Source: Porphyrobacter sp. ULC335 (lineage in GTDB: Bacteria > Pseudomonadota > Alphaproteobacteria > Sphingomonadales > Sphingomonadaceae). Taken from it: a stretch of DNA of 64,000 bases. Below, piece after piece: positions 44,178 to 47,514 of the stretch. Made by a program: the position numbers and the translations under genes. The DNA lies in the NCBI RefSeq assembly GCF_025917005.1, contig NZ_CP078091.1, positions 496,001-560,000 on the forward strand, written 5' to 3'. The first letter of the stretch is position 1; the number at the start of each line of letters is the position of its first letter. A model generated the notes under the pieces. That model ran no database searches and was not told where the DNA came from. It saw only the letters and a list, made by a program, of their open reading frames with translations.

Positions 44178-45353
44178 TTGTCAGACAGGAATACCACACA
44201 AACGTGGGGAGACCGGCTGCGGCAGTGGTTCCCTGATCGTGAGTTCTTCATGCGCGCCGATGGTCAGGTGCGCTTTATCAAGCTTTCGTCGAAGCTGCAG
44301 ATCCGCGTTGCCGCTGGTGTGGTCGCGGTCGCCTTCCTTTGGCTTGTCGCGCTCGCGGTCATGGCCTGGGGCCAGTATCGCGCCGAATCCGATCTTGCCT
44401 CCTTCGTTGAGGAAAAGGCACGGGTCGCCACCGCCAGCGAGCGTCTGAAGGCCTATGGCGGCAATCTCGACAAGGTGGTCGACGATCTTCAGGAACGTCA
44501 GGAATTCCTCGAAGAAATGGCGCGGATGCTGCCCGAGGACATGGTCAAGGAAGGCGCGGCCAGCGGCACCATCACCGATTCGACCGCAGAAGCCGGCGCG
44601 ACAGTGAAGAAGGTCAGCGCACTGATCCCCCAGGCCAAGGGTCTTGCCGAAATCGAAGCCCGCCAGCTCGCCTTTGCCGAGCGGCTCACGCGTTTCGCCG
44701 ATGCCCGCGCCCGCCGCGCCGAGGCCGCGATGCGCAAGCTGAACCTCGATCCCAAGGCCATGAGCCGCCAGACGCAAGCCGCCATGGGCGGTCCTTTCGA
44801 AGCGATCATGGGCGGGGGCGACGATATCGACCCGCGCTTTGAACGCCTCGGCCTCAGCCTCGCGCGTATGGCGGTGCTCGAACGCGCGATGGACGGCATT
44901 CCGCAGGTCGTGCCGGCCAGCGTGGAAAATATCACCTCGGGCTTCGGCTATCGCCGCGATCCCTTCAATGGTCACGGCGCAATGCATGCCGGGATCGACT
45001 TCAAGGGCGCCATCGGTTCACCGATCTTCGCCGCCGCCGATGGGCGGGTCAGCTTTGCCGGATGGAAATCGGGCTATGGCCAGACAATCGAGATCACGCA
45101 TGGTAACGGGATGTTGACCCGTTACGCCCACTTGTCGCGGATCGGCGTGAAGGTCGGCCAGCCGGTCGCCGCCGGAGCCACGATCGGCGGTCTCGGCAGC
45201 ACTGGTCGCTCTACGGGTCCGCACCTGCATTTCGAAGTCCGCATCAATGACCGCGCGGTCAATCCGCGCCCGTTTCTGGAGGCTGCCCCCGATGTTCTCA
45301 AGGAAGTCCGCCGAACCGGATCTGACCGCCCCGCCGCCCCCGCGGCCCGCTAA
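44178..45353 (+). CDS. M23 family peptidoglycan endopeptidase, membrane-anchored
   Basis: 391 residues from TTG 44178; the conserved WFPDREFFMRADGQVRFI block at the N-terminus supports this start over the ATG at 44250. One membrane segment near 46-64 (VVAVAFLWLVALAVMAWG), a coiled-coil stalk (ERLKAYGGNLDKVVDDLQER, EARQLAFAERLTRFADARAR), then an intact LytM domain: MHAGIDFKGAIGSP near 273, RYAHLSRIGVKVG, and GPHLHFEVRI near 349. A zinc DD-endopeptidase acting on the wall. It overlaps the bactofilin gene by 62 bases; TAAAAT at 44158-44163 may be its -10. Confidence 0.92.
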   Translation: MSDRNTTQTWGDRLRQWFPDREFFMRADGQVRFIKLSSKLQIRVAAGVVAVAFLWLVALAVMAWGQYRAESDLASFVEEKARVATASERLKAYGGNLDKVVDDLQERQEFLEEMARMLPEDMVKEGAASGTITDSTAEAGATVKKVSALIPQAKGLAEIEARQLAFAERLTRFADARARRAEAAMRKLNLDPKAMSRQTQAAMGGPFEAIMGGGDDIDPRFERLGLSLARMAVLERAMDGIPQVVPASVENITSGFGYRRDPFNGHGAMHAGIDFKGAIGSPIFAAADGRVSFAGWKSGYGQTIEITHGNGMLTRYAHLSRIGVKVGQPVAAGATIGGLGSTGRSTGPHLHFEVRINDRAVNPRPFLEAAPDVLKEVRRTGSDRPAAPAAR

Positions 45354-45735
45354 CAGGAGCAGTTTCATGGCCTCGGGTTCGACCTTTTCGGTGATCGGCG
45401 CGGATGTGGTGATCAAGGGCGATATCAGCGCCACCGCCGATCTGCACATCGACGGCACCATCGAAGGCGACATCAAGTGCGCCGCGCTGGTCCAAGGCGA
45501 GAAGAGCAGCATCCACGGCGCCGTGGTGGCTGAAAGCGCGCGGCTTTCGGGCAAGGTTTCCGGATCGATCACCGCCCGCGAACTCGTGATCCTCAAGAGC
45601 GCGCAGATCGATGGCGATGTGCATTATGATGCGCTGACGATCGAACAGGGCGCGCAGGTCGATGGCCGCTTTGCGCCGAATGCACGCCAGGCGGTCAAGG
45701 CTGTCCCGACCGCGCGTGTCGAGGCGGCGGAATAA
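45292..45735 (+). CDS. Bactofilin
   Basis: 147 residues from ATG 45292, with GGAGG upstream and 62 bases of overlap with the peptidase gene. This start gives an N-terminal MFSRKSAEP, like the MFSKQ-type membrane-targeting peptide of Caulobacter BacA; the later ATG at 45367 (AGGAG seven bases upstream) would lose it. The core beta-helix domain (about 32-118; GADVVIKGDISATADLHIDG, TIEGDIKCAALVQGEKSSIHG, KVSGSITARELVILKSAQIDG) polymerises without nucleotide. The basic C-terminal tail is short. The peptidase-bactofilin pair suggests localised wall remodelling. Confidence 0.95.
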   Translation: MFSRKSAEPDLTAPPPPRPANRSSFMASGSTFSVIGADVVIKGDISATADLHIDGTIEGDIKCAALVQGEKSSIHGAVVAESARLSGKVSGSITARELVILKSAQIDGDVHYDALTIEQGAQVDGRFAPNARQAVKAVPTARVEAAE

Positions 45736-45751
45736 GCCGCCCCAAACCGCA

Positions 45752-45769
45752 ATGTTTCACGTGAAACAT
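45752..45769. promoter_or_regulatory. parS centromere-like site
   Basis: A perfect 18-bp palindrome whose 16-base core TGTTTCACGTGAAACA (45753-45768) equals the well-known ParB-binding parS sequence. It lies 16 bases after the bactofilin stop in the convergent spacer before the acyl-CoA ligase gene. Chromosomal parS sites cluster near oriC, so this part of the window is probably origin-proximal. No second copy was seen in the window and parA/parB are not here. Confidence 0.92.
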
Positions 45770-45849
45770 CCTTGCAGCACAGGCGCTGCGAGGGGTGTGA
45801 ACGTGGCTGGAAGGGGTCTAGCGGGGGTCTGGTCCGCGCTGGACAGGGT

Positions 45850-47514
45850 CTAGAGCACCTCGGCGCGCAGCGTCTTGCGATCCAGCTTGCCGATCATGGT
45901 CTTGGGCAGGCTTTCGCGCACCACCACCTGATCCACGCGCTCGTGCTTGCCGATCTTGGCGTTGAGCCAAGCCGCCAGTTCCGCGCCGGTTGCCGCCGCG
46001 CCTTCGTTCAGCGTCACATAGGCGCGCGGCACCTCGCCGCGCTGTTCGTCGGGCACACCGATCACCAGCGCCTCCTTCACGGCGGGGTTCTCGAGGATCA
46101 CATCCTCGACCACGCTGGGGAAGACCTTGAACCCGTTCACCGCGATCATGTCCTTGATGCGGTCGACGATCTCGAGGAAGCCCTCGGCATCGATCCGCGC
46201 GACATCGCCGGTGCGCAGGTAGCGCTTGCCGCCGCGCTCCACGAAGGTCTCGGCATCCGTCTCAGGCCGGTTCCAGTAGCCGCGCATGATCTGCGGGCCG
46301 TGGACGGCGAGTTCGCCCGGTTCGCCTTCGGGCGCGAGCTGTGACGCGTCTTCCTTGTCGAGCAACACCACTTCGGTCCCCGGGATCAGCTGGCCGATCG
46401 TCCCGCGCTTGCGGGTGCCGTCATAGGGGTTGGCCGAAACGACGCCCGCGCTTTCGGTGAGGCCATAGCCTTCGACCAGACGCACGCCGGTGGTCTCCTC
46501 GAAACGGACATGCACCGGGCCTGGCATCGGCGCGCCGCCGGAAATGCAGACCTTGAGGCTGGAAAGGTCGGTCTTGGCGAGGTCGGGGTGATCGAGCATC
46601 GCCTGAAACATCGTCGGCACGCCGGGAAAGCCGGTGCAGCGGTACTTCTGGATCGTGGCGAGCACCTGCTTCGTCTCGAAGCGCGGCACCATCGCAATCG
46701 ACGCGCCCGTCACGCAGGCGTGGTTGAGCAGCGCGGTGTTGGCAAAGACGTGGAAGAACGGCAGCGCCCCCATGAACACCTCGGCGGTGGCATTGCCGAA
46801 GGGGTTGAGCGCGGCGACCTGCTGCGCGTTCACGGAAAGCTGGTCATGCCCGAGCATCGCGCCCTTCGGCCGCCCGGTCGTTCCACCGGTATATTGCAAC
46901 AGGGCGAGATCCTGCGCGGTGACTTCGACCGGCGCGCAGGGACGCCCCGGCGTCATCTCCGTCCAGCTGCGCACTGCGGGGCCATAGGCAACCTTGGCAA
47001 TCTGGCTGCGCTTCAGCAGCTTGAGCGCAATGCCCTTGTACCACGGCAGCATGTCGGCAAGGCTGCCCACCACCAGCGTCTCCAGCGATGAGCCTTCGAG
47101 CACCTTGTGCGCTGTCTTGTAGAGTTCGGGCACATCGAGCGTCACCAGGACCCGCGTACCACTATCGCCCACCTGCCAGGCGAGTTCCTCGACCGAATAG
47201 AGCGGCGAGAAGTTCACCACCACCGCGCCGGCCATCATCGCGCCGTAATAGGCTGCGGCGTAGATCGGCACATTGGGCAGGAACAGGCCGACCCGGTCGC
47301 CCTTGGCGATGCCGATCGCCTGCAAGCCAGCGGCAAAGGCCTGCGCCTGTGTGAAGATGTGGTGGTAGCTGTAGGTCCGCCCCAGAAAATGCAGGAATGG
47401 CGCTTCCGGATTGGCGCGCATCGTGCGCTCGAACATCGCCGGAAGGCTCATCGCCTCGAACACGGTATCCAGCGGAAGGGGGTGGTGATAGGCGGCGCTA
47501 CTACTGACAGTCAT
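45850..47514 (-). CDS. Long-chain fatty acid-CoA ligase
   Basis: 554 residues. An AMP-forming acyl-CoA synthetase. P-loop YTGGTTGRPKGA near 206-217, PFFHVFANTALL, YGLTESAGVVSANPYDG near 350, LRTGDVARIDAEGF near 435, VDRIKDMIAVNGFKVFP near 452 and the C-terminal lysine in KTMIGKLDRKTLR. Close to FadD of E. coli in length and motifs. It activates fatty acids for beta-oxidation or lipid synthesis. Its stop converges on the bactofilin gene across the parS site. Confidence 0.93.
   Translation of the reverse strand: MTVSSSAAYHHPLPLDTVFEAMSLPAMFERTMRANPEAPFLHFLGRTYSYHHIFTQAQAFAAGLQAIGIAKGDRVGLFLPNVPIYAAAYYGAMMAGAVVVNFSPLYSVEELAWQVGDSGTRVLVTLDVPELYKTAHKVLEGSSLETLVVGSLADMLPWYKGIALKLLKRSQIAKVAYGPAVRSWTEMTPGRPCAPVEVTAQDLALLQYTGGTTGRPKGAMLGHDQLSVNAQQVAALNPFGNATAEVFMGALPFFHVFANTALLNHACVTGASIAMVPRFETKQVLATIQKYRCTGFPGVPTMFQAMLDHPDLAKTDLSSLKVCISGGAPMPGPVHVRFEETTGVRLVEGYGLTESAGVVSANPYDGTRKRGTIGQLIPGTEVVLLDKEDASQLAPEGEPGELAVHGPQIMRGYWNRPETDAETFVERGGKRYLRTGDVARIDAEGFLEIVDRIKDMIAVNGFKVFPSVVEDVILENPAVKEALVIGVPDEQRGEVPRAYVTLNEGAAATGAELAAWLNAKIGKHERVDQVVVRESLPKTMIGKLDRKTLRAEVL

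Follow-up and report, generated by a model that had tools for sequence, protein, structure and literature searches.

The 64,000-bp stretch of Porphyrobacter sp. ULC335 analyzed here (the window; positions 496001-560000 of a 3,618,402-bp contig, with the genome designated as G000) contains a perfect parS palindrome that probably belongs to a set of secondary ParB-loading sites distributed over the whole chromosome. The sites in this set are mostly outside predicted genes and often found at gene 3' ends. Comparisons at the sequence level demonstrate that these sites occur far beyond chance expectation, are absent from sister lineages, and recur at orthologous places. The same comparisons establish that the dispersed sites, unlike those in the cluster near the origin, carry a one-sided accessory in an 11-bp register. 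Against chromosome-wide ParB loading, functional sites scattered in this way would be atypical of the class, by comparison with Caulobacter, and many of the sites are at gene 3' ends, as with a transcription-termination element.

The parS site and its bactofilin neighborhood

The 16-bp sequence TGTTTCACGTGAAACA at window positions 45753-45768 is an exact match to the parS consensus. Together with the flanking A/T it forms the 18-bp palindrome ATGTTTCACGTGAAACAT at 45752-45769. For the whole window, the chance expectation for a parS match with up to three mismatches is 0.07. The site is located between two convergent 3' ends, namely those of a bactofilin gene and an AMP-binding ligase gene. The last base of the bactofilin stop codon is at 45735, leaving 16 bases before the palindrome. 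An earlier note on this DNA had described a classical parS 16-mer within an 18-bp palindrome at this distance from the bactofilin stop, and both the coordinates and the exact match agree with that description. The features of this locus are as follows (window coordinates, strand, and description).

44178..45353, plus strand: M23 peptidase gene upstream of the bactofilin gene, given for context only (PF01551, E 5.6e-37)
45367..45735, plus strand: bactofilin gene, 122 aa, palindrome-side neighbor directed at the element (PF04519, E 1.4e-25)
45753..45768 (18 bp: 45752-45769), no strand: perfect parS palindrome TGTTTCACGTGAAACA, one of 16 exact copies in the genome
45792..45799, plus strand: array unit 1, GGGGTGTG, one mismatch to GGGGTCTR, 23 nt past the palindrome
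45813..45820, plus strand: array unit 2, GGGGTCTA, 44 nt past the palindrome
45824..45831, plus strand: array unit 3, GGGGTCTG, 55 nt past the palindrome and 11 bp past unit 2
45845..45852, plus strand: array unit 4, AGGGTCTA, one mismatch, 76 nt past the palindrome
45850..47514, minus strand: AMP-binding (acyl-CoA ligase-like) gene, array-side neighbor directed at the element (PF00501/PF13193)

Array unit 4 overlaps the ligase stop codon (window 45850-45852: CTA, TAG on the other strand).

For the bactofilin neighborhood, 80 loci were compared, and the 72 with a convergent ligase form the base of the counts. Seven of these 72 named relatives have a parS-like site (up to two mismatches) between the convergent bactofilin and ligase genes. 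All seven fall among the 28 closest relatives, 16 of which have just 3-9 bp at this place. In locus L219, which aligns with the focal locus, the module is inverted, such that the palindrome adjoins the ligase stop codon and the array faces the bactofilin gene. Given this flipped module and the presence of the site in so few relatives, the focal site turns over and its adjacency to bactofilin looks incidental. At the same position, the closest relatives have either a parS module or only a few bp; in more distant Erythrobacter (e.g., L171 and L172), the gap between bactofilin and ligase contains a GC hairpin with a T-run that resembles an intrinsic terminator.

The earlier note had proposed a special link between the centromere and the bactofilin cytoskeleton. 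The two are adjacent in the genome of the window, and the bactofilins of Myxococcus xanthus organize ParABS (PMC5703909). However, the site is shared by just the seven relatives mentioned above and parS-like sites neighbor dozens of other genes, such that the proposal is largely refuted and retains next to no probability.

Copies across the genome and the replication origin

In G000, 16 exact and 35 one-mismatch copies of parS are found over 3.6 Mb, compared with none for the reversed control. When up to three mismatches are allowed, there are 61 matches versus two for the reversed pattern. Ten of these 61 have two or three mismatches, and our analyses rest on the 51 sites with at most one. 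Six of them are clustered beside parB, at genome 575.7-580.4 kb, and parB together with this cluster (genome 574-581 kb) is located 32-39 kb to the right of the window site. The chromosomal ParB (ParB_N at 574328-574609, minus strand, 114.9 bits) matches solved ParB structures, e.g., 6t1f, and scores 195.6 bits against TIGR00180 (cut-off 58.45). Apart from this ParB, the only one of chromosomal type, the genome encodes a single distant ParB_N protein. The latter (C1:1022026-1022322, minus strand, locus L012) has a 619-aa open frame and 46.3 bits to ParB_N; as a guess, it perhaps derives from a plasmid-like element.

The GC skew of sampled loci is negative to the left of about 577 kb, approximately zero to positive up to 2.39 Mb, and negative beyond, with sign switches near 577 kb and near 2.39 Mb. 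Because the skew flips at the parB/parS cluster, the replication origin is probably located there. The other 45 of the 51 sites (12 exact and 33 with one mismatch) are outside the cluster and reach the terminus region, and six of the 12 exact copies are 0.53-1.20 Mb away. A perfect parS had been taken in the earlier note to place the region near the origin. The region does appear to be origin-proximal, with approximately 34 kb between the focal site and the cluster, but in this genome a perfect copy is not an origin marker. The genome-wide search for the 16-mer found many copies far from oriC, an outcome named as refuting in the earlier note; these scattered copies refute the equation of a perfect parS with proximity to oriC and leave its reading as a ParB site standing.

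Even spacing of the dispersed sites was considered and rejected, as the variation in their gaps is like that of random placement (0.30 of simulations were as low). The exact copies are closer to the origin than the one-mismatch copies (Mann-Whitney p 0.0024). Within 330 kb of the origin, a cut-off picked post hoc, there are six of the 12 exact and two of the 33 one-mismatch copies (Fisher p 0.0024).

This distribution bears on the main rival explanation, in which the dispersed sites act as a pool for the retention or titration of ParB, as proposed for the half-parS sites of Pseudomonas aeruginosa. The ParB of that species moves to scattered half-parS sites in stationary phase (PMC10419367). 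A similar role would fit the mismatch found in 33 of the 45 dispersed sites and the greater distance of these mismatched sites from the origin. However, full palindromes at places shared across species, combined with a one-sided accessory, seem to be more than titration needs. We consider retention a possibility, yet a clearly less probable one than secondary ParB loading. The likelihoods assigned to these two explanations overlap because both include a ParB-binding step.

One-sided accessory elements

Among the 45 dispersed sites in G000, 41 have at least two GGGGTCTR units (up to one mismatch) within 130 nt that point away from the palindrome; one of the 41 has an outward array on both sides. 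At least two units pointing toward the palindrome were found at only one of the 45. None of the six sites in the origin cluster has an outward array, and arrays are present in four of 906 control windows, which were drawn from random places rather than matched intergenic regions. Of 112 intervals between array units, 91 measure 11 bp. At 35 of the 41 array sites, the first unit starts at a distance of 10-12, 20-23, or 34 nt from the palindrome. This spacing and these preferred distances indicate that the array and the palindrome are in a common helical register.

The four dispersed sites that lack an array all have a one-sided GAAC/GTTC located 6 nt from the core and 11 bp from the core half-site. 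Elsewhere in G000, this accessory half-site is found at three of the 41 array sites and none of the six cluster sites. In G035 and G090, two parS-rich genomes with zero array matches, 15 of 20 sampled sites (14 from G035 and six from G090) have the half-site on exactly one side and five have none; the position of the half-site was first noticed in these two genomes, and partly in the G000 flanks, before being counted. Among 48 parS-rich genomes, array matches rise with copy number (Spearman 0.82), and 22 have 0-2 array matches. The array is judged from these genomes to be not essential for dispersal, because 13 of the 48 have none.

Three other properties of these elements were considered and rejected. 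G-quadruplexes are predicted in 13 of 41 arrays versus 55 of 205 dinucleotide shuffles, with no clear excess. For polarity oriented with replication, the counts are 18 versus 23. For a phage origin of the composite, 16 IMG/VR stretches match the palindrome plus one unit, and none of the 16 shows a phased array.

Position relative to genes and transcription termination

The gene context of the sites was taken from our simple ORF model. This model places 38 of the 51 in intergenic DNA, with a convergent gene pair around 21 of the 38. The remaining 13 fall within a predicted ORF or at its boundary, and five of them belong to the origin cluster. Such placement would be expected if the elements served transcription termination or insulation at 3' ends, with a hairpin and a C-rich, Rho-loading antisense array, and with the likeness to parS being incidental. 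Several other features are consistent with this explanation. Among the array sites located outside predicted genes (36 in total), 28 have an array-side gene directed at the element and 23 have a palindrome-side gene so directed; in 20 of the latter 23, 0-28 bp separate the stop codon of that gene from the palindrome. RNA read from the array side would have the C-rich unit UAGACCCC every 11 nt. In addition, a few sites have a long perfect extension of the palindrome (11 bp per arm at genome 1613306).

However, the structural evidence does not favor termination. No intrinsic terminator (GC-rich stem-loop plus T run) was found at 45300-46300. The best RNA fold of the focal site leaves the 16-mer unpaired with itself (z -1.84; seven of 200 shuffles as stable). 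The mean flank extension is 2.33, compared with a control mean of 1.47 and maximum of 2.73, and is thus below the top shuffles. Moreover, 35 sites in G000 have a single change on one side, and at most 10 of the 61 (those with two or three mismatches) could be symmetric. A hairpin or terminator as the main function was rejected, as flank complementarity, the terminator scan, and RNA folding give no support. Overall, we regard a termination element that resembles parS by accident as unlikely.

Conservation at orthologous positions

For comparisons between species, 39 loci were tried, including 27 of G022 that were chosen by their arrays and 12 exact sites of G025. Among these, 28 aligned well with a sampled G000 locus, with the sampled G000 loci corresponding to approximately a tenth of the genome. 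The palindrome is at the same place in 24 of the 28 aligned pairs. In the exceptions, three are offset by more than 300 bp and one (L078) has no palindrome with up to four mismatches in G000. The comparison of identity used 23 of the 24 same-place pairs (L211 was left out) and omitted two switching positions. Over these pairs, core identity is 93% for G022 and 96% for G025, and the identity of the 40-bp flanks is 63% and 61%, respectively, compared with 49% for random pairs. The core identity is partly by construction because both members of a pair were picked as parS-like, which made us slightly less confident of the ParB-loading explanation; the shared position is independent evidence.

These results may also be compared with the expectations for a mobile REP/MITE-like repeat family that happens to contain parS and has spread by transposition. 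Copy number varies widely within one clade and array size differs among copies, as a mobile repeat might. However, the sites are at orthologous places across species, and the G000 copies share only the palindrome and the array in the 75-bp flanks inspected, with no longer flanks in common. Inspection of these flanks revealed no homologous unit with recognizable ends of the kind that defines REP or MITE families. Transposition of this kind is highly improbable as the source of the sites.

Distribution among relatives

When TGTTYCACGTGRAACA was searched with one mismatch in 114 genomes of the genus, 63 had 0-5 copies, three had 7-9, and 48 had 10-89, whereas the reversed control gave 0-1 per genome. 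Among 396 genomes sampled from the order, the 355 outside the genus carry 0-7 exact copies of TGTTYCACGTGRAACA. In a set of 289 genomes from the class, three outside the order also have high counts (79, 18, and 13). The highest count comes from G698, a member of another alphaproteobacterial family, in which 79 exact parS-like palindromes are present over 1.8 Mb. In the G698 loci that were read (L271-L285), the palindromes are often tightly grouped and accompanied by degenerate copies and A-tracts, such that this genome apparently represents an independent expansion with a different architecture. G679 (18) and G670 (13) are likewise high in parS-like palindromes.

A tree of the parB locus, based on 28 chromosomal ParB loci from 30 genomes (without G007 and G023), separated 17 rich genomes (at least nine copies) from 11 poor ones with support of 100/100. 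Another 30 genomes gave 29 ParB loci (without G084), for a total of 57. A larger tree inferred from 55 of these with a quick method (L247 and L269, both fragments, were left out) separated 41 rich genomes (at least 10 copies) from 14 poor ones with an SH-aLRT of 100. Based on these trees, the parS-rich genomes form a single supported clade of Erythrobacter/Porphyrobacter among those sampled in the order.

A concerted variant in G022 and the probable reader of the sites

In G022, seven of the eight sites in the cluster beside parB are exactly TGTTCCACGTGGAACA, as are 22 of the 27 sampled array loci; two other loci have one-mismatch forms of TGTTCCACGTGGAACA, and three have no palindrome within two mismatches. 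The change in TGTTCCACGTGGAACA is symmetric, affecting one position in each arm. Next to parB, the half-sites of low-copy species are mostly a mixture of T and C types. In the tree, the sites beside parB are T-type at 40 of the 41 rich loci and C-type at just one, that of G022. Given that the dispersed and cluster sites of G022 have the same variant, the simplest reading is that the dispersed and parB-proximal sites share one DNA-binding reader, for which ParB is the obvious candidate; the concerted variant is known from this one species and counts as one event. The sharing of the variant also argues against two of the alternatives. For the mobile repeat, the parB-proximal cluster has the same variant as the putative mobile copies. 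For the termination element, the cluster sites share the variant of the elements, though their G000 counterparts are in predicted ORFs at five of six sites.

The recognition-helix motif of ParB was read in 54 of the 57 loci (without G089, G066, and G116). At residue 195 (G000 numbering), all 14 poor genomes have Q. Of the 40 rich genomes with the motif read, 37 have M, and G022 has H. As a specificity switch this residue is suggestive only, because G103 and G079 have Q but keep T-type sites, and a switch by this single residue was rejected. In ParB residues 178-198, several positions share no residue between the 17 rich and 11 poor genomes, and some of the distinguishing positions adjoin the SHVAN motif of the helix-turn-helix.

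A possible mechanism

Under the explanation of chromosome-wide secondary loading, the same ParB would read the dispersed sites and load there as a clamp. Once loaded, ParB may recruit its partner SMC, and perhaps also MipZ, at numerous positions along the nucleoid, while the main centromere would presumably still be the dense origin cluster. The one-sided array or half-site could make loading or spreading directional, or could hold a co-factor. The preference for 3' ends may simply reflect that binding sites interfere least with promoters there.

Caulobacter tolerates an extra parS cluster best when it is inserted within approximately 500 kb of the origin or native cluster, and a small region at the terminus is also permissive. 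Mid-arm positions are strongly disfavored; a cluster there leads to longer cells and more cells with abnormal ParB foci, and strains with ectopic parS also have abnormal MipZ foci (PMC5815017). If ParB acts as in Caulobacter, the rich clade must have altered something that makes the sites harmless or useful. One candidate change is weaker or directional loading via the one-sided accessory, and another is that the sites have acquired a new function, for instance in loading SMC across the chromosome or in controlling division. More speculatively, the point centromere of one clade may have evolved into a ParB system that is diffuse, polar, and extended over the whole chromosome. Its asymmetric parS modules, each combining parS with a helically phased array or a half-site and often located at 3' ends, would load ParB and thereby SMC and/or a division inhibitor throughout the nucleoid, as a ParB-based counterpart of Noc without a Noc paralog. 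We put this fuller scenario forward tentatively, as the genome comparisons leave it well short of probable.

Comparison with known systems

Published studies describe parS as located near the origin, extra copies as able to lower fitness, and variation in number and position as unexplained (PMC5815017, PMC7333895, PMC8357415). Hyphomonas has two parS sites near parAB (PMC6650430), and Streptomyces coelicolor and Listeria innocua have 20-23 near the origin (PMC7333895). No description of dispersed parS in this genus was found in the open-licence literature. With 0 to 89 copies within one genus, limits on centromere number become directly testable. Similarly, G022 makes a joint change of ParB specificity and tens of sites testable, and the rich clade does so for the organization of a whole chromosome by a ParB system.

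The ParABS systems of Caulobacter and Pseudomonas share with the one examined here the 16-bp sequence, the ParB family, and a dense cluster on the parB side at the origin. They have a few parS sites near the origin, whereas here tens more are found chromosome-wide with a one-sided, 11-bp-phased accessory. In Firmicutes, the nucleoid occlusion protein Noc is a ParB-fold protein that binds dispersed palindromes. The dispersed palindromes and the putative ParB-fold reader described here are similar to that system. However, the site here is parS itself, and G000 has no second chromosomal-type ParB. Moreover, the chromosomal ParB scores 196.2 bits against the Noc model, under the cut-off of 315.

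The system is also similar to those of B. subtilis, S. coelicolor, and L. innocua in having many parS copies, with such scattering being limited to few lineages (PMC8357415, PMC7333895). The eight sites of B. subtilis extend over about 0.75 Mb (PMC8357415), whereas here an alphaproteobacterium has approximately 50 sites that extend up to the terminus and have polar accessories. Finally, the half-parS sites of P. aeruginosa are likewise scattered ParB targets away from the origin, a role that is putative here. Those are 7-bp half-sites (PMC10419367), whereas the sites described here are full 16-bp palindromes common to several species.
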